Source: Halobellus rarus (lineage in GTDB: Archaea > Halobacteriota > Halobacteria > Halobacteriales > Haloferacaceae). From it: a stretch of 64,000 bases of DNA. Every line of letters starts with the position of its first letter. Positions within the stretch are counted from its first letter, which is position 1. Made by a program: the position numbers and the translations under genes. Positions 20,655 through 33,302 of the stretch are shown here, in pieces. The stretch covers positions 186,001 to 250,000 of the forward strand of contig NZ_JANHDI010000001.1 in NCBI RefSeq assembly GCF_024494595.1. Direction: 5' to 3'. The notes beneath the pieces are model-generated. The model had not been told where the DNA came from, did no database searches, and saw only the letters and a program-made list of their open reading frames with translations.

Positions 20655-20749
20655 GGGGTCGGCCGCGTGCCGCTGCCAGCTCTTTTGGATCCTCTACTTC
20701 GTTCGCCAGGACGCCGCAGCGTTATCCCGCTGGGACCCTTGGTAACAGT

Positions 20750-22291
20750 ATGCATTCGACGCCCGTCCGACGCGCCGCGGTGGGCGCCGTCGTCGGAATC
20801 GTGTGGCTCGCCGGCCTGTATCTCGCCGCACCGCTCGTCGGGGGCTTCGCCCCCGTCGCCCTCGCGGAGGGTGTCATCGTCCGCTCGCCGGGGTGGCTGT
20901 CCACGCTGGCGGTCGGCGTCCTGGGGTTCTCCGCGAAGCCGGTGCTGCTGGGATCGGTGCTCGTCGGGGCCGTCGCCGTCTCAGCCGTCGCGTGGGCTCT
21001 CTGGCCGTGGGAGCGGTCCGAGGCGACGCCGCTGGCCGGCGTTCTCGGGGTGGGTGCGACCGTCGCGGCCCTCGCGGTGGCCGGTGGAACGCTCTCGCCG
21101 GGATCGGTTCTCGGGGTCGCGCTCGCGGTCGCGCCGCCGTACGTCGCGAGTCGACTGCTCTCGACGGCGACGACTCCTTCCTCGCCCGACCGACGACGGT
21201 TCCTCCGCCGGATCGGCACCGTCGCCGTCGTCGGGACGGGATCGCTCCTCGGACTTCGTGCGGGGTTCGATCGGCTCGTCGGTGGAGGGGGTCGCGGTGG
21301 TTCCGCGGGCTCGGGCGGAAGCGGCGGAGTCGCGGGCGGCACAGGCGATAACGTCGACGACGCTGACGGCGCTTCGACTCCCAGCGAGGGCGATCCTCGG
21401 TTCGACTTCGCGGGGATGCCGGCGGCGGTCACGGCACCGGAGGACCACTACGTCGTCGACATCAACATCCGACCGCCGGACGTCGACCCCGACTCGTGGA
21501 CGCTCGACGTCGACGGCGCGGTCGAGAGCCCGTACGACCTCTCGTACGACGAACTACGCGACCACGAGGCGAGCGTCGAACAGGTCACGACGATGGTCTG
21601 TATCTCCAACCCCGTCGGCGGCGACCTCATCGGGACCCCTCGCTGGACGGGCGTTCAACTGTCGGATCTCGTTGCCGAGGCCGACCCCGCCGACGGAGCG
21701 GTCGACGTCGTCACCCACGCCGCCGACGGGTACAGCGAGGCGATCCCGCTCGAAATCGTCGAGCGCGAGGACATCCTGATCGCCTACGAGATGGGGTCGT
21801 CGCCGCTCGCGACCGAACACGGTTTTCCGGCCCGGTTGCTCGTCCCCGGCCGGTACGGGATGAAGATGACCAAGTGGATCACGCGGATCGAGGTCTCGGC
21901 GGCCGATCACGAGGCCTACTGGGAGGAGCGCGGCTGGGACGAGGAGGCGGTCGTCAACACGATGTCGTACGTGCGCGGCGTCGAGCGCGACGGCGACCGA
22001 GTCACCGTCGGGGGCGTCGCGTTCGGCGGCCTGGAGACCGGCGTCGAGGAGATCGCGGCCGTGGAAGTCAGCGTCGACGACGGCGACTCCTGGAACGAGG
22101 CCGAGCTGGAGCCGCAGATCGCACCGCACGCGTGGCGGCGCTGGCGGTACGTCTTCGACGCCCCGGATCGCTCCGGGTTCGCGGTCGTCGTCCGGGCGAT
22201 CACCCGCGACGGGACCGTCCAGACGGAGACGGGGGCCTCGCCCCGTCCCAGCGGCGCGACGGGGTGGCACAGACGCTACGTTCGGGTGTGA
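20750..22291 (+). CDS. Molybdopterin-dependent oxidoreductase with N-terminal membrane domain
   Basis: A 513-residue fusion. Residues 8-140 contain about four transmembrane helices. A twin-arginine stretch RRRFLRRIGTVAVVG (148-162) and another hydrophobic segment follow. From residue 215 runs a sulfite-oxidase-fold domain: YVVDINIRPPDVDPDSWTLD, then VCISNPVGGDLIGTPRWTGV, whose C284 should ligate molybdenum, and ARLLVPGRYGMKMTKWITRI. The C-terminal third (about 405-513) is the Mo-co dimerisation domain. The catalytic domain probably faces outside. The substrate is unknown; sulfite or sulfoxide-type chemistry is family inference. Confidence 0.9.
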   Translation: MHSTPVRRAAVGAVVGIVWLAGLYLAAPLVGGFAPVALAEGVIVRSPGWLSTLAVGVLGFSAKPVLLGSVLVGAVAVSAVAWALWPWERSEATPLAGVLGVGATVAALAVAGGTLSPGSVLGVALAVAPPYVASRLLSTATTPSSPDRRRFLRRIGTVAVVGTGSLLGLRAGFDRLVGGGGRGGSAGSGGSGGVAGGTGDNVDDADGASTPSEGDPRFDFAGMPAAVTAPEDHYVVDINIRPPDVDPDSWTLDVDGAVESPYDLSYDELRDHEASVEQVTTMVCISNPVGGDLIGTPRWTGVQLSDLVAEADPADGAVDVVTHAADGYSEAIPLEIVEREDILIAYEMGSSPLATEHGFPARLLVPGRYGMKMTKWITRIEVSAADHEAYWEERGWDEEAVVNTMSYVRGVERDGDRVTVGGVAFGGLETGVEEIAAVEVSVDDGDSWNEAELEPQIAPHAWRRWRYVFDAPDRSGFAVVVRAITRDGTVQTETGASPRPSGATGWHRRYVRV

Positions 22292-23132: not shown

Positions 23133-24353
23133 TCAGGCCTCTGAACGAGTCACTCGGTACGCCCCGAGGCCGACGGAGACGGTTCCGAAGATCCCGACGA
23201 GTATCGGGACGCCGGGGAAGGCCGGGATCGATCCACTCTCGGAGGAGGACGTCTCCACGGCCCCCGCCGTCGAGTTGGTTCCCGCTGTCGACTCCGCGGC
23301 GTCCGTCCGGGCACCGGCGACATCGGCGCTGATCGTCTCGCCCGCCTCCAACGACTCGTTCGTGGTGAGCATCGGGATCGGTGCCGATCCGGTTCGGAGG
23401 TTTTCGGAGTGACGCACCCGAGACGGATCGTATCCCTGCAGGACGACCGCGAGAGAGGTCGTATTCCGTCGGATCTCTTTCTCGAACTGCGTCCCGGTGA
23501 GGTCGTAGGCCACGCCGACCTGCGCGCTTCCGTTCGCCGGAACGCTGACGTTCAGTTCGACGCCCGCGTCCGTCTGCCGATACTCCGCCTGCGAACCGTC
23601 GACCATCGCGGCGTACGGCGACGCGTCGGCGGGCAGCCCGATCGTCACGGTCCCGAGGAACGGCCGGTCACTCGGGTTCTCGAAAGCTATCGTCTCGATG
23701 GCGCTCGGGGCGTCCGAGTCGTTCCCGGGCGGCACGATCTGGACGACGTGGCCGGTCGGCGTCCGGTTCGCGACACCGAGTACGGACGTGTCGTTCGTCG
23801 GCGGCCGCGCAGTGACCGTCACGTTCTGACTCGTCGACGGATCGACGGTCCGCCGGTACTCCGCGTTCCCGACCGTGGTGCGGAGTTCGTACGTCTCGTC
23901 GGATTCGAGGGGACCGAACGCGAACGCGCCCGTCTCGTTCGTCCGCCCCGTATCGACGACGAACTCGTTCTCGTCGATCAGTTCGACGACCGCGCCGGAC
24001 TGTGCGGTCCCGTCGGCGTCGACGACCCTCCCAGAGAGCCGCTGGGACAGCTCAAATTCGACCTGCGTTCGGTCCTGCAGCACTTCGTAATGCGTCGCAC
24101 CGCCGTGTTCGATCCGGACGGCATACGCCGGCGCATCCGGCGCGTCGACCGAGAAGGACGATCCCTCGACCGTCGTGGTCACCGCGTCCTCCGCCCGCTG
24201 CCGTTGCTCGGTGAGGGGTACGACCTCGACGCGAGCGCCGTCTGCACTCCCGTCGTCGACGGTGACCGTGCCGCCCACTGTCGTCGTCGCGCTGGCGACG
24301 GGAACGAACCCGAGCGCGCTGAGGACGACGAGGAGCGCGAGCAGTCTCCTCAT
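23133..24353 (-). CDS. Secreted, membrane-anchored Ig-like (carboxypeptidase regulatory-like) protein
   Basis: A 406-residue exported protein: MRRLLALLVVLSALGFVPVASA is a Sec signal peptide, and a C-terminal transmembrane helix (about 378-400) is followed by YRVTRSEA. In between are beta-rich domains, including a carboxypeptidase-regulatory-like module (LSGRVVDADGTAQSGAVVEL and YELRTTVGNAEYRRTV). Many N-x-S/T sites (NVT, NGS, NDT) could be glycosylated. Its ATG overlaps the TGA of ccmF by one base, so it belongs to the cytochrome c biogenesis operon. A role as a surface chaperone or scaffold is only a guess. Confidence 0.75.
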   Translation of the reverse strand: MRRLLALLVVLSALGFVPVASATTTVGGTVTVDDGSADGARVEVVPLTEQRQRAEDAVTTTVEGSSFSVDAPDAPAYAVRIEHGGATHYEVLQDRTQVEFELSQRLSGRVVDADGTAQSGAVVELIDENEFVVDTGRTNETGAFAFGPLESDETYELRTTVGNAEYRRTVDPSTSQNVTVTARPPTNDTSVLGVANRTPTGHVVQIVPPGNDSDAPSAIETIAFENPSDRPFLGTVTIGLPADASPYAAMVDGSQAEYRQTDAGVELNVSVPANGSAQVGVAYDLTGTQFEKEIRRNTTSLAVVLQGYDPSRVRHSENLRTGSAPIPMLTTNESLEAGETISADVAGARTDAAESTAGTNSTAGAVETSSSESGSIPAFPGVPILVGIFGTVSVGLGAYRVTRSEA

Positions 24354-26797
24354 CAGTCCGACACCTCCGTGACGCCCTCCGGACGACTCTGCGACGACGA
24401 GGCTGACTCCCCGTACCCGGCGATCGAGTTCGTCCGAACGCCGTGTCGCGGGTCGAAGAGCAGCACGAGCACCATCCCGACGAGTAGCGACACGATGCTC
24501 AGCCGCATCAGCGTCATGAAGGGAACCCGCTTGACGGACATCGAGGCGGTCCCGTCACTGACCCCGGCGATGACGTACGTGTCGACGAGCGGTCCGCGAT
24601 CGATCAGCACGTCTCTGACCTGAAGCCCGCCCTGCTCGGGATACTCTCGCTGTCCGGCGACGCCGGAGACGACGAGACCGTTATCGTCGTACACCGCGAC
24701 GGACACGCCGGTGGCGATCACCCGAGTCGGAACGGCCGCGTCCGGTGGGTCGTCGGCGGGACCGACGGTTTCGGGTCCGGCGAGCACGATGGCGTCAGCG
24801 GTCGGGACGAACTCCCACATCACCTGTCCGCGGGCGACGATCTCCTGGCCGGTTTCGACGCCCACCGTTCCGTTCCCCGCGATGCCGACCCACACCTGGG
24901 AGTCGTCGAGTTGTACCACTGTCGCCCGTGGTCCCTCACGTATCGCCGTCACCGTCCCGTGGACGGTCTGCACTGACGTGTTCAACGACTGTCCGCGAGT
25001 GAGGACCTGCGACGAGGTGAGCGCGTACGTTCCCGGTTCGGGATCGTTCGGGAACTCGCTTCGCTCGTACCCGAGCACGCGGATGTCGTACGAGGACGTG
25101 CCGACGTCGCGCTGGGACGTGTCGACTGCGCCGGCCGCGACGCCGGTCGCCATCACCGACGCCTGTCCGGCGAAGAGATACATAAACGGCAGCGAGAGCA
25201 CGAGCAGCGCCGCGCCGACGTGGATCAGCGTGATCCCCGTCTCTTTCAGTTTCGCGTCTCGACTCCCCGTCGCGGCGATCCGCCCCCCCGTTCGCTTGAC
25301 CGTCCCGAGAATCGCGTACGCCACGGGTGGCAGCACCGAGAGCGCGCTCGCGTTGCCGATCACCTGATAGATGAGCGCGTCGCCGGGGCGAGCTGACGCC
25401 AGTCGCCACGTCTCTGAGGGCGCGACAGCGGCACCGACGAGCGTCGCGAGGCCGAACACCGCCAGTCCGGCGAGACTCCGGCGCAGGCCCTCCCGGTCGT
25501 AGTCCATGTAGAACCCGAGGAGGAGCAACAGCGCGAGGACGAGCGGGAGACTCCACAGGTTGTAGTAGTGCGACTCGACCGACACCTCGAGCCCCGTCAT
25601 CGCGCTCCGCAGTACCGGGAACGAGAGTCCCCACAGCGAAACGAAGGTCAGCAGTCCGAAGAGGAGGACGGCGAGGTGAAGCAGGTTCGAGCGGGTGACC
25701 CATCTTGCGAGACGGCTCTCATCGGTCCCCTCGGTACCGGATGTGTCGTCGCCGCTCTCTTCGGTCATCGCCCAGTAGGCGAGCGGCAGCACGACGCCGA
25801 GAACGGTTGTTACGCCCATCAGTACGAGGAACGACGCGCCGATCCCACCGTCGGCGAACGAGTGGATGCTCCTGAAGACGCCGCTTCGGACCACCGACGT
25901 CGTGTACACCGCGAGCGCGAACACGCTGGCTGTCATCGCGGGCGCGAGGATTCGATACCGCCCGCCCGGTCGGTAGTTCGTGACCGCGTGCAACGTCGCC
26001 GTCAGGAACAGCCACGGGATCAGGATGGCCGTCTCGACCGGGTCCCACGCCCAGATACCGCCCCAGCCGAGCACCGTGTAGGACCAGAGTCCGCCCAGCG
26101 CGACGGCGGCGGTGAGAAACAGCCACCCGAGTCGGAGCCAGCGGGTAACGCTGCCGACCCACGTCGAGAAGAGGCCGTCGTCACCGCGGAACAGCGCGAT
26201 GAAGTGCGCGGCCCCGATTGCGAACGGCATCGTCAGCAGCGCGTAGGAGACGAACATCACCGGCGGGTGGATCGCCATATACGGATCGACGAGGAGGGGA
26301 TTCAGCCCCTGCCCGCTCGTCGGCGTGAATCCCGGCGGCGCGTTGGGGAACGCCGTCCGAACCGAGGCGAACGGGCTCTGCAGCAACAGCATCGCCGAGA
26401 AGTACGTCACGACGCCGATGGTGAGCGCGTGGACGAGCTTCCCGCGCCGAGTCGGGAAGCCCCGCGTCACGCCGGCGATCAACGCGACGACGGCGACGAT
26501 CGACGCCCACAGGAGCACCGATCCCTCGTTTGCCGCGTACACGCCCGTCACGCGGTAGAGCACCGAGAGATACGCCGCGGTGTTCTCCCACACGTACGCG
26601 TTCGAGTAATCGAGACTCACGAACTGGTAGGTGAGGTGCGCCAGGGCGGCAACCAGCAGCACCGCCGTCCCCGCGGTCAGTTTCGGGACGTACGAGAGGT
26701 ACCGGTCGTCGTCGACGAGATACGACCGCGTGAGAAGGGCCGTACTCACCACTCCGGAGAGGAACGCGAGCGCCAGCAGGATCGTCCCGGGATTCAC
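24353..26797 (-). CDS. ccmF: Cytochrome c haem lyase CcmF
   Basis: An 814-residue polytopic membrane protein with about 14-15 helices. Hallmarks: GLNPLLVDPYMAIHPPVMFV (residues 164-183) and the WWD haem-handling motif GWGGIWAWDPVE (244-255), followed by HAVTNY. In System I it transfers haem from CcmE to apocytochrome CxxCH sites on the outer face. A periplasm-like domain (about 560-760) before the last helix has a beta-rich, OB-like character (VHGTVTAIREGPRATVVQLD, then VWVGIAGNGTVGV). The length is greater than the usual 620-670. It starts with ATG overlapping the stop of the thioredoxin gene by four bases. Confidence 0.95.
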   Translation of the reverse strand: MNPGTILLALAFLSGVVSTALLTRSYLVDDDRYLSYVPKLTAGTAVLLVAALAHLTYQFVSLDYSNAYVWENTAAYLSVLYRVTGVYAANEGSVLLWASIVAVVALIAGVTRGFPTRRGKLVHALTIGVVTYFSAMLLLQSPFASVRTAFPNAPPGFTPTSGQGLNPLLVDPYMAIHPPVMFVSYALLTMPFAIGAAHFIALFRGDDGLFSTWVGSVTRWLRLGWLFLTAAVALGGLWSYTVLGWGGIWAWDPVETAILIPWLFLTATLHAVTNYRPGGRYRILAPAMTASVFALAVYTTSVVRSGVFRSIHSFADGGIGASFLVLMGVTTVLGVVLPLAYWAMTEESGDDTSGTEGTDESRLARWVTRSNLLHLAVLLFGLLTFVSLWGLSFPVLRSAMTGLEVSVESHYYNLWSLPLVLALLLLLGFYMDYDREGLRRSLAGLAVFGLATLVGAAVAPSETWRLASARPGDALIYQVIGNASALSVLPPVAYAILGTVKRTGGRIAATGSRDAKLKETGITLIHVGAALLVLSLPFMYLFAGQASVMATGVAAGAVDTSQRDVGTSSYDIRVLGYERSEFPNDPEPGTYALTSSQVLTRGQSLNTSVQTVHGTVTAIREGPRATVVQLDDSQVWVGIAGNGTVGVETGQEIVARGQVMWEFVPTADAIVLAGPETVGPADDPPDAAVPTRVIATGVSVAVYDDNGLVVSGVAGQREYPEQGGLQVRDVLIDRGPLVDTYVIAGVSDGTASMSVKRVPFMTLMRLSIVSLLVGMVLVLLFDPRHGVRTNSIAGYGESASSSQSRPEGVTEVSD

Positions 26798-27619: not shown

Positions 27620-28975
27620 ATGAGTCAGGGCGACTCGACGCTCTTGCTCAAACCCGTCCTTCTAGTCTTCGGGACGGTTTTCGCCGCCATCGTCGTCGTG
27701 TTCGCCATCAACGGAGCCATCGCGTTCCTCGGCGGCCCGGGGGACGCGCCGGCCGCGAGCGCCGGCGGTGGCGAGGTCCGCGAACTTCCTGGCACGTGGA
27801 ACGGCAGCAAGTGGTACAGCGAAGACCTGCGCGAGCAGGGGTTCGAGTACAAGAACGCGACCGCGGGCGAGGAGGTCAACTTCGTCCCCAAGGAGATGAA
27901 CAACTCGACGCTCCCGGAGAACGAGAACCGCCGGGAGCTCATCCGTGAGGGTCGTGCGATCTTCGCGAACACCTCCAACGAGATGCCCGAACACGTGGGG
28001 AACGACCTCTCGTGTGCGAACTGTCACGGCGGAGGCGACCTCCCCACGACCACCGGAATGGTCGGACAGGACATCGATATGATCCCGCTCGTCGGGACTG
28101 CAGCCGGCTATCCCGAGTGGACCGGCCGCACCCAGCGGATGCGGGACATGCGTCAGCGGATTATGGGCTGTTTCCTCCGGAGTATGAACTCGCCGGGCTC
28201 CGAGGAGGGCGTCCCCGCGTACGACAGCCGCGAGATCCAGGCGATGGAGTCGTATATGGTCTGGCTGAACAAGGGGACGCCGAGCGAGACTGTCCCCTAC
28301 TGGCGGCACATCGAGAAACCTGAGGGCGACGAAAAGGTCCCGGTTTCGGAGGTCAATCCCGTCCGCGGGGCCGAGCTGTACCTCGAGAACTGTGCCTCCT
28401 GTCACGGGGCGGACGGACAGGGAACCGAGGGGCAGTACCCGCCGCTTTGGGGTGAGGACTCGTTCAACGATGGGGCCGGAATGGGTCGCATCTACACGTC
28501 CGCGGGCTTCACTCGCGAGGCGATGCCCTACGGCGCGGCACATACGTTCTCCGACTGGGAGGACGTCCAGGACGTCGCTGGGTTTATGAACGCCCACGAG
28601 CGGCCGCACCTCCCGCGACAGCCCAAAGACTGGGCCGCCGCCGGTGCGCCCGACGAAGCGGTCTACTACAACCGCACGCAGCAGCGTCTCGGATACGATA
28701 TGAATCCGATGACGAAGAAGCTCATGCTCGCGGACATCCCGATCGACGACTCTGAGATCAACGAGAGCGTGATCCCCGACAACGTCGAGCGATACGACCA
28801 GCCGCTTCGGAACGAGTCCGTCGACGGGTCTTGGGAGACGACGTGGATCCGGACCTACGAGGACGTCGACAACTCGACGAGCGACGACGCCGCGAACCAG
28901 TCGTCGGTGACCGCACAGGACGCGGTCACGACTGCCTTGGCGTCCGAGCGATCCACGGGCGAGACGGCGAGCTAA
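27620..28975 (+). CDS. Membrane-anchored diheme cytochrome c, TsdA (thiosulfate dehydrogenase)-like
   Basis: A 451-residue protein with an N-terminal transmembrane anchor (residues 11-37) and two haem c sites, CANCH (132-136) and CASCH (258-262). The first domain reads GRAIFANTSNEMPEHVGNDL and RQRIMGCFLRSMNS, with C184 placed 48 residues after H136. The second has AGFTREAMPYG, with M302 40 residues after H262. In TsdA, a Cys and a Met/Lys at about these distances are the distal haem ligands, so this is a probable His/Cys-His/Met diheme enzyme that couples thiosulfate to tetrathionate. Activity is inferred. The C-terminal 100 residues are polar, with NxS/T sites. A GTG at 27608 is an alternative start. 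Confidence 0.85.
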   Translation: MSQGDSTLLLKPVLLVFGTVFAAIVVVFAINGAIAFLGGPGDAPAASAGGGEVRELPGTWNGSKWYSEDLREQGFEYKNATAGEEVNFVPKEMNNSTLPENENRRELIREGRAIFANTSNEMPEHVGNDLSCANCHGGGDLPTTTGMVGQDIDMIPLVGTAAGYPEWTGRTQRMRDMRQRIMGCFLRSMNSPGSEEGVPAYDSREIQAMESYMVWLNKGTPSETVPYWRHIEKPEGDEKVPVSEVNPVRGAELYLENCASCHGADGQGTEGQYPPLWGEDSFNDGAGMGRIYTSAGFTREAMPYGAAHTFSDWEDVQDVAGFMNAHERPHLPRQPKDWAAAGAPDEAVYYNRTQQRLGYDMNPMTKKLMLADIPIDDSEINESVIPDNVERYDQPLRNESVDGSWETTWIRTYEDVDNSTSDDAANQSSVTAQDAVTTALASERSTGETAS

Positions 28976-28999: not shown

Positions 29000-29692
29000 A
29001 TGATAACCGACCCGACCGCCGTCACCGTGTTTCTCGCGGGCTTTCTGACGATCCTGACTCCGTGCTGTCTCCCGATGATTCCCGTCCTCGTCGTCGGCGC
29101 GAACGGGCACGCGCTGCGGCCGGTCGCGATCGTCGTCGGGAGCACGCTGACGTTCACCGCGCTCGGCGTCCTGACCGGAATGGTCGGCTCCGTGACGCCG
29201 GACACCGTCCGCGCGCCGTTCGCTGTCTTGATGCTGGCGTTCGGTGCCGTGATGGCCGACAACGACCTCAACGAGGTCTACTCGCGGTACGCCTCCCGTC
29301 TCGCCGGGCGGGCGTCGCGGCTCACCGGCCGCATCGACGAGGACACTCACCCGCTGGGTAACGCGTTCTCGGTGGGGCTGCTTCTGGGCGTCATCTGGCT
29401 CCCCTGTGTCGGCCCCGTTCTCGGTGGCGTCTTGGCGTACGTCGGGACGACGGCGGACGTCGTCGGCAGCGCTCGGCTGTTGGCGACGTACGGGGCCGGT
29501 TTTTCAGTCCCGCTCCTGGGCGTCGCGTACCTCGGGCAGGCCGGCAGCACTCGACTGCTCGACTCGGTCACGAGCGGAGCGTCGACCGAACTGTTCAGAA
29601 CGGCGACCGGCTACGCGCTCGTCGCGCTCGGGATCGCTGTGCTCTTCGGTCTCGACAAACTCGCACTCGCATCGGTAACGACGTGGCTCTAA
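29000..29692 (+). CDS. ccdA: CcdA/DsbD-type thiol-disulfide membrane transporter
   Basis: A 230-residue protein with six predicted helices. The redox cysteines lie in two pseudo-repeated helices: LTPCCLPMIPVL (C22, C23) and IWLPCVGPVLGGVL (C136). CcdA moves reducing power from cytoplasmic thioredoxin across the membrane to the CcmG-like protein. The usual pair is one Cys per half; the doubled CC in the first half is slightly unusual. It follows the cytochrome gene by 24 bases and precedes ccmC by four, in one operon. Confidence 0.93.
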   Translation: MITDPTAVTVFLAGFLTILTPCCLPMIPVLVVGANGHALRPVAIVVGSTLTFTALGVLTGMVGSVTPDTVRAPFAVLMLAFGAVMADNDLNEVYSRYASRLAGRASRLTGRIDEDTHPLGNAFSVGLLLGVIWLPCVGPVLGGVLAYVGTTADVVGSARLLATYGAGFSVPLLGVAYLGQAGSTRLLDSVTSGASTELFRTATGYALVALGIAVLFGLDKLALASVTTWL

Positions 29693-29696
29693 CAGT

Positions 29697-30482
29697 ATGA
29701 ACGGTAACTCATCGACGGACGACGGGGACGCTCGCACGCACGAGAGCAGAGGCAGCAACGTTCGATTCGCCCGGATTATCGGGACGGTTACGGGTATTCT
29801 CCACCGCGTGACAGGTAGTCGGTTCGTCGCGTGGGGGGCATTCGGCTTCGGACTGCTCTCGATGGTGCTGGTCTTCGGGGTCGCGTCGGACACGATGTAC
29901 GGGATCGAACACGGCGCGAACCTCCTCGCGTACTGGCACATCTCGCTCGCGTGGGTGGCCGCGGCCGCGCTCGGATCGACGTTCGTCGGCAGCGCGCTGT
30001 ATCTGCGCTATCGGGGGCCGTTCTGGAGCCGGCTGGCGCACAGTTCCGGTGAACTGGGGTTCCTCTTCGCGACGTTGACGCTGCTCCTCGGCAGCGCGTG
30101 GGGACGCGTCATCTGGAACTCCTGGTGGGAGTGGACCGACGTCAGGCTGGTGACGTTCCTGATCGTGTGGTTCATTTACGCCGGCTATCTGGTCGTCTAC
30201 TCCGCGACCGACGCCCAGTCCGGCGACCGGTACGCGGCGGTCTACGGCGTCGTCGGATTCGTGACCGTTCCGCTGTCGTACGCGTCCACGCGGCTCTGGA
30301 CGCCGACGTTCCACGAGACCACGATCGGAAACAGCGGCGTCAGCGCGAACATCGATCCGCTGACGCTCGTCGTGACGCTCGTCGCGGCGACGTTCCTCTA
30401 TCTCTACCTGCTGGGCATTCGGATCCGCATCCACGAACTCGAACAGGACGTTCGCAGAGCACGGCACTCACGGAGGCGATAG
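29697..30482 (+). CDS. ccmC: Haem-handling membrane protein CcmC
   Basis: A 261-residue protein. A roughly 40-residue polar N-terminus precedes six helices. The WWD motif is WGRVIWNSWWEWTDVRL (residues 135-151), and candidate haem-ligand histidines are H81 (LAYWHISLAW) and the one in PTFHETT (about 205). CcmC loads haem onto CcmE in the outer leaflet. The segment between the two tryptophan clusters is slightly longer than in the bacterial form (WGTWW-WDARL). Two bases separate it from the ccmD-like gene. Confidence 0.92.
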   Translation: MNGNSSTDDGDARTHESRGSNVRFARIIGTVTGILHRVTGSRFVAWGAFGFGLLSMVLVFGVASDTMYGIEHGANLLAYWHISLAWVAAAALGSTFVGSALYLRYRGPFWSRLAHSSGELGFLFATLTLLLGSAWGRVIWNSWWEWTDVRLVTFLIVWFIYAGYLVVYSATDAQSGDRYAAVYGVVGFVTVPLSYASTRLWTPTFHETTIGNSGVSANIDPLTLVVTLVAATFLYLYLLGIRIRIHELEQDVRRARHSRRR

Positions 30483-30484
30483 CG

Positions 30485-30604
30485 ATGGAACCACTACTCT
30501 TAGCCGGCTACTCCGCGCTCTTCGTCGCGCTCTTCGGATACGTGACGTACCTGCAGCGTCGGATGGCTCGGCTCGAACGACGACTCGAAGACGTACAGGC
30601 GTGA
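30485..30604 (+). CDS. CcmD-like 39-residue membrane protein
   Basis: The peptide has a single helix, MEPLLLAGYSALFVALFGYV, then a charged coiled tail TYLQRRMARLERRLEDVQA. This is the CcmD layout: one helix with a positive cytoplasmic tail. CcmD helps release holo-CcmE from the CcmABC complex. Position directly after ccmC is the strongest evidence; the sequence itself is too short for certainty. Confidence 0.8.
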   Translation: MEPLLLAGYSALFVALFGYVTYLQRRMARLERRLEDVQA

Positions 30605-30687
30605 GACCGAGTCGACGGGCGGCGACCCGTCGACCGATCGAATCCGACAGCACACCGAAAACACAGGCGATTCACGACCGATACACT

Positions 30688-31398
30688 ATGTCAGCGCAAC
30701 CCAACAGATCGACCGAGAGACGAGCGTTCCTGCGCCGGACTGCGACCGGACTCGGCGCGGCAGCGACGATTGGCCTCGCCAGCGACACCGCGGCCGCGCA
30801 ATCGGAACCGGATTACGGCGGCTGGTTCGACGGCGTGTCCAACTTCGAGGGGACCTACGACTACACCGGCCAGTCGGAGGTGACCGTCGCGGTCGGCTCC
30901 GAGGCCAACGGTGGGTACTACGGGTTCGGCCCCGCGGCGATTCGGGTCGATCCGGGGACCACCGTCGTCTGGGAGTGGACCGGCGAAGGGAACAGTCACA
31001 ACGTCGTCGCCGAGGACGGGAGCTTCGAGAGCGAACTCTACACCGCTCCCGGCGAGACGTTCGAACACACGTTCGAGAGCGAGGGGACCTACAAGTACTA
31101 CTGCGATCCGCACCGGTCGCTCGGAATGCTCGGGGCAGTCGTCGTCGGCGGCAGCGGCGGCCTGGATTCGAGCCAGGTCGAACAGCCGCTTCTCGAAGCC
31201 AGCGGCGAGGGCGGAAGCGGTGGCGAATCTGGCGGTGAATCGGGCGGCGAATCCGACGGGTCGGGGACGCCGATATCCTTCGAGAGCGGGACGCTCGTCG
31301 CCATCCTCGCTCTCGGACTGCTCTCTCCGGTCTTTTTCGGCATCTTCCTCCTGCTACAGGAGACCGGGTCAGCGGAACCACCGACGAAAGCCGAGTGA
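30688..31398 (+). CDS. Halocyanin (type 1 copper protein) with Tat signal and C-terminal membrane anchor
   Basis: A 236-residue protein. RRAFLRRTATGLGAAATIGL is a twin-arginine signal. The cupredoxin domain (about 45-155) has all four type-1 copper ligands: H104 (GNSHNVV), C139 and H142 (YYCDPHRS) and M147. A Gly/Ser/Glu-rich linker (about 168-195) leads to a C-terminal helix (about 200-222). It should carry one electron on the outer face of the membrane. Its place inside the Ccm operon suggests it is the electron partner of the diheme cytochrome. Confidence 0.92.
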   Translation: MSAQPNRSTERRAFLRRTATGLGAAATIGLASDTAAAQSEPDYGGWFDGVSNFEGTYDYTGQSEVTVAVGSEANGGYYGFGPAAIRVDPGTTVVWEWTGEGNSHNVVAEDGSFESELYTAPGETFEHTFESEGTYKYYCDPHRSLGMLGAVVVGGSGGLDSSQVEQPLLEASGEGGSGGESGGESGGESDGSGTPISFESGTLVAILALGLLSPVFFGIFLLLQETGSAEPPTKAE

Positions 31399-31433: not shown

Positions 31434-32108
31434 TCACGTCTCGACGACGTACTCGAAGGTCGCGACGCCAGCGAGCAGCACGACCCCGGTGTACAGGCCG
31501 AGCAGTCTGAGCCACCCGCCAAGCGGCGAACCGCTTTCGAGCGCCGCGGTGAGTTCGACGCCGGCGAGGAGCAGCGGGACGACGAGCGGAACGAGGAGGA
31601 CCGGCAGCGCGAGTTGATCGAGGCCCGACCGGAACGTCAGAACCGAGACGACGACGCCGATGGCGGCAAATCCGACGGCGGCGACGAGGAGTACGGCTGC
31701 GACCGAGACCGCCGTCGGGATCGATGGACTGTAGCCGAGAAAGACCGTGGTCGCGCCCAGCGTCACCAGACTCACCACAAAGACGAACGTCGCCGTGCTG
31801 AGTACTTTTCCCAGGTAGATCGCCGAACGGTCGACCGGAGCGATCAGCAGGCCGTCGAGCGCCCCGTTCCGGTCTTCGAGTTCGACCGTCTTCGTGACGC
31901 CGAACGTCCCGGCGAACACGAAGGCGACCCACAGCGCCCCGCGTCCGAGCAACGTCGACCGCTGTAGCGTCTGGACGAAACTGAACGCGAACGCGAGCAC
32001 GACGAGCAGCGCGAAGACGGCGACGCTCGTCGTCACCTGCTTCGTCCGCTGCTCGATCCGGAGATCCTTCCTGAACACTCGGTAGACTGCTCGGAGAAAT
32101 GCGTTCAT
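31434..32108 (-). CDS. ccmB: CcmB, haem-export ABC permease
   Basis: A 224-residue permease with six predicted helices. The N-terminus MNAFLRAVYRVFRKDLRIEQ and the segment VFAGTFGVTKTVELEDRNGA, then LDGLLIAPVDRSAIYLGKVL, are typical of CcmB. The late LALPVLLVPLVVPLLLAGVE is also a family feature. With CcmA it drives ATP-dependent release of haem-loaded CcmE. It lies downstream of ccmA on the same strand with a 19-base gap, and converges with the halocyanin gene. Confidence 0.92.
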   Translation of the reverse strand: MNAFLRAVYRVFRKDLRIEQRTKQVTTSVAVFALLVVLAFAFSFVQTLQRSTLLGRGALWVAFVFAGTFGVTKTVELEDRNGALDGLLIAPVDRSAIYLGKVLSTATFVFVVSLVTLGATTVFLGYSPSIPTAVSVAAVLLVAAVGFAAIGVVVSVLTFRSGLDQLALPVLLVPLVVPLLLAGVELTAALESGSPLGGWLRLLGLYTGVVLLAGVATFEYVVET

Positions 32109-32127
32109 CGCCCCATCTCGGTGGGTG

Positions 32128-32895
32128 TCATCGCGTCGTGTCCCCCACGTGTTTCGGTTCGGACTCCACGCCGATCGTCCGGCGATACTCCGCGGCGAAC
32201 GACGCCGCCTCGTCGAGTTCGAGGTCCGCTTCGAGACGGCCACGGTCGACGACGAGCGCCCGATCGCAGCGTGCGACACCGCGTTCGAGATCGTGCGTCG
32301 TCAGAACGACGGTCCGATCGTCGAACCCGTCGAGGACCGATTCGAGGTCGGCGAGCGAGCGCTGATCGAGCCCGGTGTACGGTTCGTCGAGCAACAGCAC
32401 GTCCGGGTCGTGGAGCAGCGCCCGGGCGAGCGACAGCCGCTTTCGCAGGCCGTGTGAGAACGCGGTCGGACGATCGCTCCCGCGGTGACATAGGCCGACC
32501 GTATCGAGCACCGACGCACACCGATCCGCGGGATCGTCGACGCCGTGGAGATCCGCGTGGAACCTGAGGTTCTCGCGGGCGGTGAGCTCGTCGTACAGCA
32601 TCGTCTCGTGAGTGACGACGCCGATCGTCCGGTAGATGGTGTGGTCGTCCGGGGCGACTTCCACGCTGTCGATCGTGATCGTTCCGCGGGTCGGTCGCGC
32701 GAGCCCCGCCATCATCCGAAGCAACGTCGTCTTGCCCGCGCCGTTCGGGCCGAACAGCCCGACCGTCGAGCCGCGCTCGACGGCGAACGACAGGTCGTCG
32801 ACGGCGGTGAAGTGACCGTAGGATTTCGTCACGTGTTCGACCTCGATAGCCGGCGGTTCCGAGGTCGTCTCCGCGCGCTCCGCGTCCGGCGTCAT
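32128..32895 (-). CDS. ccmA: CcmA, ATP-binding subunit of the haem-handling ABC complex
   Basis: A 255-residue ATPase. Walker A is GPNGAGKTT (49-57), the signature is SHGLRKRLSLARA (147-159), Walker B is LLLDEP (167-172), and an H-loop occurs in LTTHDLERG. CcmA proteins typically have LSxGxxRR rather than LSGGQ, and the SHGLRKR form here fits that. Its ATG overlaps the TGA of ccmE by four bases. An in-frame extension at the N-terminus was rejected. Confidence 0.93.
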   Translation of the reverse strand: MTPDAERAETTSEPPAIEVEHVTKSYGHFTAVDDLSFAVERGSTVGLFGPNGAGKTTLLRMMAGLARPTRGTITIDSVEVAPDDHTIYRTIGVVTHETMLYDELTARENLRFHADLHGVDDPADRCASVLDTVGLCHRGSDRPTAFSHGLRKRLSLARALLHDPDVLLLDEPYTGLDQRSLADLESVLDGFDDRTVVLTTHDLERGVARCDRALVVDRGRLEADLELDEAASFAAEYRRTIGVESEPKHVGDTTR

Positions 32896-33302
32896 CGAGT
32901 GCTCTCGGGCCGCTCCTCGCCTTCGTGTGCGCGGACGGAGAGTTCGTTCGCGACCAGCCGGTCACCTTCGAACTGCCCTTTGGCGACGACGACACGGCCG
33001 TCCTGGAGCGTATCGGGGGTCGTTCCCTCGTACACCACGGGGACGGTGTGGTTCTCGTCGGTCACCTCGAAGGTGATCGTCTCTCCGTCGACGTCGAGGT
33101 CGGTGACGACGCCTTCGAGGTTGACCCACTCTTCCTGATAGGTTCCGTCCGATTCGGAGAGCTGCGTCGGCGATACGAACGCGGCCGAGGCGTTCATACT
33201 CGTCACGCCGAGGGCGGCCAGGAGGACGAGTATCCCGACGGTCGTGACGAGCAGTTTGTTCTTCCGGCGCACTTGCGTGATTTGTACGCGGCCGCTCTTC
33301 AT
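32892..33302 (-). CDS. ccmE: CcmE-like haem chaperone with altered haem-binding motif
   Basis: A 136-residue protein with one N-terminal helix (LLVTTVGILVLLAALGV) and an OB-fold beta domain (about 58-125), with WVNLEGVVTDLDVDGETITF and VVYEGTTPDTLQDGRVVVAK as CcmE family strands. Bacterial CcmE binds haem through HxxxY and the archaeal variant through CxxxY. Here the C-terminal motif is AHEGEERP: H126 is present, but residue 130 is glutamate, not tyrosine, and there is no cysteine in the protein. It is first in the leftward ccmEAB operon. A TCTAAAATCG TATA-like element lies at 33364-33373. Confidence 0.9.
   Translation of the reverse strand: MKSGRVQITQVRRKNKLLVTTVGILVLLAALGVTSMNASAAFVSPTQLSESDGTYQEEWVNLEGVVTDLDVDGETITFEVTDENHTVPVVYEGTTPDTLQDGRVVVAKGQFEGDRLVANELSVRAHEGEERPESTR

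Follow-up and report, generated by a model that had tools for sequence, protein, structure and literature searches.

The window, by which we mean the whole 64,000-nucleotide stretch of Halobellus rarus DNA analysed here (contig NZ_JANHDI010000001.1, positions 186,001 to 250,000, of a 3.66-Mb draft genome), contains at 27620-28975 an open reading frame which is a homologue of TsdA and very probably catalyses the TsdA reaction, in one direction or the other. With the same high confidence we propose that the product functions as a membrane-anchored haloarchaeal thiosulfate dehydrogenase/tetrathionate reductase. This reading depends on sequence scores, on aligning individual residues with those of the solved enzyme and on comparison of folds, all of which bear out the membership in TsdA that had been suspected from the motifs of the open reading frame.

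The TsdA homologue and its fold

The features of the gene and of its product are as follows.

27620..28975, + strand: TsdA-family di-haem cytochrome c gene of Halobellus, an intact ORF of 451 aa
Residues 10-37: N-terminal membrane anchor (putative)
Residues ~99-225: catalytic SoxA-like domain
Residues ~245-335: electron-transfer domain
Residues 336-451: C-terminal extension
28013..28027, + strand (residues 132-136): CANCH, haem 1 attachment, with His136 as proximal ligand (coordinates computed from residue numbers)
28169..28171, + strand: Cys184, predicted distal ligand of haem 1 and catalytic cysteine, equivalent to Cys123 of Allochromatium vinosum TsdA (alignment; PMC4423706)
28391..28405, + strand (residues 258-262): CASCH, haem 2 attachment, with His262 as proximal ligand
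28523..28525, + strand: Met302, predicted distal ligand of haem 2, equivalent to A. vinosum Met236 (alignment; PMC5146829)

The sequence-only reading had singled out the CANCH and CASCH motifs, a cysteine within RIMGCFLRSMN 48 residues beyond the first haem histidine and a methionine within FTREAMPYG 40 residues beyond the second, together with a membrane anchor at the N-terminus. Both motifs are present, Cys184 and Met302 lie at exactly these distances from His136 and His262, respectively, and a hydrophobic helix at residues 10-37 is apparent in the sequence as well as in the structural model, suggesting either a membrane anchor or an uncleaved signal.

The best match of the ORF among solved structures is TsdA of A. 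vinosum (4v2k; phmmer E 2.9e-39), followed by the TsdBA fusion of Marichromatium purpuratum (5lo9; E 3.1e-37), and these matches, over residues 95-335 (99-335 for A. vinosum TsdA), take in the two haem domains. Neither of the outcomes that would have refuted the sequence-only reading came up, matches to the cbb3-type CcoP being far weaker in the same search (E ~1e-4 or worse). In Pfam, the SoxA-TsdA_cyt-c profile matches at 32.3 bits (cut-off 27) and Cytochrom_C is also above its cut-off; an NCBIfam scan returned no TsdA line, the best line being SoxA at 40.7 bits against a cut-off of 110, with ccoP at 24.7 bits likewise below its cut-off of 179.95.

An alignment of 17 sequences yielded a haem-free AlphaFold2 model of moderate confidence (mean pLDDT 60, with core blocks mostly at 75-90), whose both-domain fold fits that of TsdA, with VIA-align Z scores of 20.5-23.6 to all TsdA chains. 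Foldseek places TsdA at all of ranks 1-9. In VIA-align the best fold match is MpTsdBA (5lo9; Z 23.6); A. vinosum TsdA superimposes with Z 20.5-20.8 and an rmsd of 2.4-2.8 over 213-223 residues, and SoxA comes next after the TsdA chains at Z 10.4. The nearest structures are all those of TsdA, and the two CxxCH motifs sit in two cytochrome c domains, as they do in TsdA.

Predicted haem ligands and thiosulfate pocket

In A. vinosum TsdA, Arg109, Arg119, Ser127 and the main chain of Gly221 surround the bound thiosulfate, Cys123 is the catalytic ligand, and His80, His191 and Met236 are the other haem ligands (PMC4423706, precursor numbering). All eight residues have counterparts in the ORF: His80, Arg109, Arg119 and Cys123 align to His136, Arg170, Arg180 and Cys184, and Ser127, His191, Gly221 and Met236 align to Ser188, His262, Gly287 and Met302. 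Each of the eight is kept in 39/39 haloarchaeal rows, a set that includes some genes fetched twice, and the two distal ligands, Cys184 and Met302, are invariant in 17/17 aligned homologues. Given this invariance and the phmmer score to TsdA, the Cys/Met ligand pattern is not a product of chance. Cys184 is moreover the sole cysteine of the ORF outside both haem motifs, just as the catalytic cysteine is the sole one outside the haem motifs in A. vinosum (PMC4423706). The predicted His/Cys ligation of haem 1, with its Arg/Arg/Ser pocket kept, and the predicted His/Met ligation of haem 2 are therefore both upheld by the alignment.

The residue preceding the haem 2 methionine is a lysine in A. vinosum, which ligates haem 2 when oxidised, and an asparagine in Campylobacter jejuni, in which methionine ligates haem 2 already in the oxidised state (PMC5146829). 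Across the haloarchaeal rows this position (301) is Ala or Ser, being Ala301 in the ORF, and position 299 is Arg. Since Ala or Ser replaces the switching lysine in all haloarchaeal copies, a lysine/methionine switch is unavailable at position 301, and haem 2 of haloarchaeal TsdA is probably always His/Met, as in C. jejuni.

Gene neighbourhood, probable electron partner and proposed reaction

The gene is embedded among genes for haem handling, thiol reduction and a blue copper protein:

23133..24353, - strand: CarboxypepD_reg protein with a membrane anchor, a conserved member of TsdA islands
24353..26797, - strand: CcmF-type haem lyase, 814 aa
26794..27360, - strand: thioredoxin-like protein (WCTYC) with a membrane anchor, divergently oriented to TsdA and conserved together with it
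29000..29692, + strand: DsbD/CcdA-type transmembrane thiol reductant protein
29697..30482, + strand: CcmC-type haem handling protein
30485..30604, + strand: conserved 39-aa single-helix ORF directly after CcmC, CcmD-like by size and place only
30685..31398, + strand: blue copper protein of the halocyanin type (halo_cynanin 141.9 bits, cut-off 93.8), a candidate for the electron partner
31434..32279, - strand: CcmB
32128..32895, - strand: CcmA-like ATPase
32892..33302, - strand: CcmE without CxxxY or HxxxY, ending SVRAHEGEERPESTR and devoid of cysteine

Thus, the thioredoxin-like protein and CcmF are encoded upstream of and divergently from TsdA, the DsbD-type protein, CcmC, the 39-aa ORF and halocyanin follow downstream, and CcmB, CcmA and CcmE lie beyond halocyanin on the strand opposite to TsdA. 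The placement of thioredoxin and CcmF upstream and of DsbD downstream of TsdA recurs in 27 of 28 loci found in a search of haloarchaeal genomes, the exception being L044. The CarboxypepD_reg protein next to CcmF, for which MauG-type islands gave no match at E 1e-4, is possibly an assembly factor. Near the cassette a sulfite-oxidase-type molybdopterin oxidoreductase with a membrane part is encoded (20735-22288, + strand), as it is also in Halobellus rufus; it was not seen at TsdA loci other than these two.

By analogy with the bacterial enzyme, haem 1 (His136/Cys184) would form the active site at the outer face of the membrane, where Arg170 and Arg180 would hold thiosulfate and Cys184 would be converted to a Cys-S-thiosulfonate. 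A second thiosulfate, assisted by Ser188, would then displace the Cys184 adduct to yield tetrathionate, and the two electrons would exit via haem 2 (His262/Met302). Judged solely by gene neighbourhood, the partner accepting these electrons is most likely a halocyanin, in this genome probably the product of the downstream gene; such a link would connect TsdA with terminal oxidases and in this way couple thiosulfate/tetrathionate chemistry to the respiratory chain, as the sequence-only reading had supposed. Halocyanin adjoins TsdA in Halobellus, Halorussus and some others, and was not detected at the Halococcus and Halogranum TsdA loci; a TsdB-like partner was not found in the genome of the window, which has no second PF13442/PF00034 match. 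The adjoining ccm, dsbD and thioredoxin genes would make holo-TsdA, probably for this single client.

The catalytic direction of haloarchaeal TsdA is not readable from sequence. Given the TsdA reaction, we lean towards net thiosulfate oxidation under oxic conditions, and since the switching lysine is missing tetrathionate reduction is a possible activity too. Run in reverse in the cell, the enzyme would act as a tetrathionate reductase and as an electron sink at low oxygen, as in C. jejuni, a role in keeping with methionine being the sole candidate ligand of haem 2 and lysine being absent, as in that bacterium; the adjoining halocyanin, however, being a neighbour of a kind that points to a high-potential electron acceptor, argues in the other direction, and we regard such a role as rather unlikely. 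Bidirectionality is a property of the family, and the residue before the methionine does not alone set the direction: in C. jejuni TsdA, Asn254Gly favoured reduction and Asn254Lys gave no oxidiser (PMC5146829).

A different chemistry would follow if the protein were a SoxA-like enzyme conjugating thiosulfate to a thiol, carried by a protein or a small molecule, and not to a second thiosulfate. SoxA has both the SoxA-TsdA domain and a Cys-ligated haem in common with the ORF, but its score among solved structures is 14.9 bits (E 0.085) compared with 138 bits for TsdA, its fold is more distant (Z 10.4 compared with 20.7), the ORF carries on its C-terminal side an electron-transfer domain of its own that includes Gly287, as TsdA does, and SoxB is not above cut-off in the genome (best match 200.6 bits, cut-off 550). 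On the low score, the fold and the missing SoxB we reject a SoxA identity as highly improbable. A general di-haem electron carrier of the CcoP or bc1 type, in which the cysteine and the methionine would be coincidental, is for practical purposes ruled out, because CcoP and QcrC match the second haem domain weakly, at least 30 orders of magnitude below TsdA, and mainly over one domain, and because the active-site arginines and serine as well as the fold are those of TsdA.

The ccm cassette and its probable clients

TsdA is the sole match of PF00034, PF13442 and PF21342 in the genome of the window, and MauG (PF03150) is absent from it, so that no other ccm client was found among these four families. 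For this reason, the cassette in this genome probably serves TsdA alone, among the cytochrome c families tested. Of the 14 genomes that possess CcmE and lack TsdA (L055-L068), 12 have, beside the cassette, a CNTCH ORF with a second haem motif, and a scan of a single such di-haem ORF identified it as a peroxidase of the MauG type (PF03150, E 4e-59); of the remaining two, one contains multihaem ORFs and the other lacks any within the region retrieved. In a further genome (G037) the TsdA locus retains its own thioredoxin and CcmF, the other ccm genes being located elsewhere by a MauG-like gene. It seems, then, that the cassette has two alternative clients, TsdA or MauG.

Archaeal CcmE has been described, in a study of Methanosarcina, as universally containing CxxxY, and archaeal systems as lacking CcmD (PMC9084895). 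In contrast, the haloarchaeal CcmE motif is of the [ST]VRAHEG type, with neither CxxxY nor HxxxY. Among 31 haloarchaeal CcmE proteins (that of the window, 32892-33302, with L002-L008, L050-L052 and L055-L074) a terminal histidine motif is conserved, as VRAH or close variants and in one more divergent case as KSH; CxxxY is absent from all 31, and in the part read any cysteine is absent from 27/31. In 25 loci (the window and 24 others) the CcmC gene is immediately followed by a conserved, short single-helix ORF of ~39 aa; a Pfam scan of the 39-aa ORF gave no match and hence no support for CcmD.

A tentative extension of these data, to which we give slightly less than even weight, is that the TsdA island constitutes a self-contained, horizontally movable unit of an enzyme and its haem-attachment apparatus with an exchangeable client (TsdA or MauG), in which a divergent CcmE would use the conserved histidine of VRAHEG, together with a CcmD-like peptide, in an attachment chemistry differing from the one described in other archaea.

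Distribution and possible origin

TsdA occurs in 26/391 haloarchaeal genomes and in 14/86 genera, and in a phylum-wide draw is confined to haloarchaeal genomes; the nearest named relative is H. rufus, with 97% identity for this protein. All 26 TsdA genomes carry CcmE, compared with 14 of the 365 others, and TsdA is found in none of the 351 CcmE-negative genomes (Fisher p 9e-31, a value that, the genomes being related, is not an independent-sample probability). In two genomes TsdA and CcmE are each present in two copies. Plasmid-borne matches to TsdA occur in Halobacterium noricense, at two places on one plasmid, and in Halorussus halophilus. On the H. noricense plasmid TsdA is accompanied by ccm genes both times (NZ_CP089469.1 74625-75959, L023; G320:C2:241130-242467, L045), with two CcmE copies.

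Bacterial homologues were sought across genomes of bacterial phyla, and a tree of 66 core sequences (33 haloarchaeal and 33 bacterial TsdA-like), computed with no SoxA or other outgroup and with a bootstrap not fully settled, unites the 33 haloarchaeal sequences in one clade (support 100/100) beside the bacterial rows. This clade has a long stem of 1.45 changes per column. A single clade standing on a long stem, apart from the bacterial sequences, fits one acquisition from bacteria followed by patchy spread, and a bacterial origin of haloarchaeal cytochromes c has been suggested by Kletzin et al. (PMC4429474).

Relation to known systems and significance

With A. vinosum TsdA (4v2k, 4wq7) the Halobellus protein shares the two cytochrome domains, the His/Cys active-site haem, the Arg/Arg/Ser thiosulfate pocket and the methionine on haem 2, but differs in having a membrane anchor and an extension at either terminus, in the replacement of the switching lysine by Ala/Ser in haloarchaeal copies and in the location of the gene inside a ccm cassette. 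C. jejuni TsdA, likened here by description, similarly lacks a lysine before the haem 2 methionine, the latter being the likely oxidised-state ligand (PMC5146829). The fold match to M. purpuratum TsdBA (5lo9; Z 23.6) reaches into the C-terminal extension, to residue 411, whereas the Halobellus protein lacks the TsdB domain and has the membrane anchor instead.

Haloarchaeal TsdA beside ccm genes is already known in kind from Kletzin et al. (2015), who reported 'thiosulfate dehydrogenase homologs' of five species, operon-like with ccm genes, as their cluster 28 (PMC4429474). The length of these proteins (368-485 aa), their haloarchaeal source and their operon-like association with ccm genes agree with what we find, and, matched by this description, the Halobellus TsdA almost certainly belongs to the same family; the main text of that report contains no residue-level or functional analysis. 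Our searches of the literature on thiosulfate oxidation by haloarchaea and Halobellus, at the level of abstracts and of the main text of PMC4429474, retrieved no experiment on haloarchaeal TsdA. What is new here is the residue-level test, the replacement of the lysine, the wider distribution, the duplication of the cassette and the exchange of its client between TsdA and MauG, as well as a CcmE of haloarchaea from which CxxxY, called universal in archaea, is missing.

For the haloarchaea themselves, the sequences make a testable prediction, namely that thiosulfate/tetrathionate redox chemistry may operate in ~7% of the genomes sampled. Cytochromes c are rare in this group, and a cassette comprising one di-haem client with its own maturation genes would provide a compact system for studying archaeal haem attachment.
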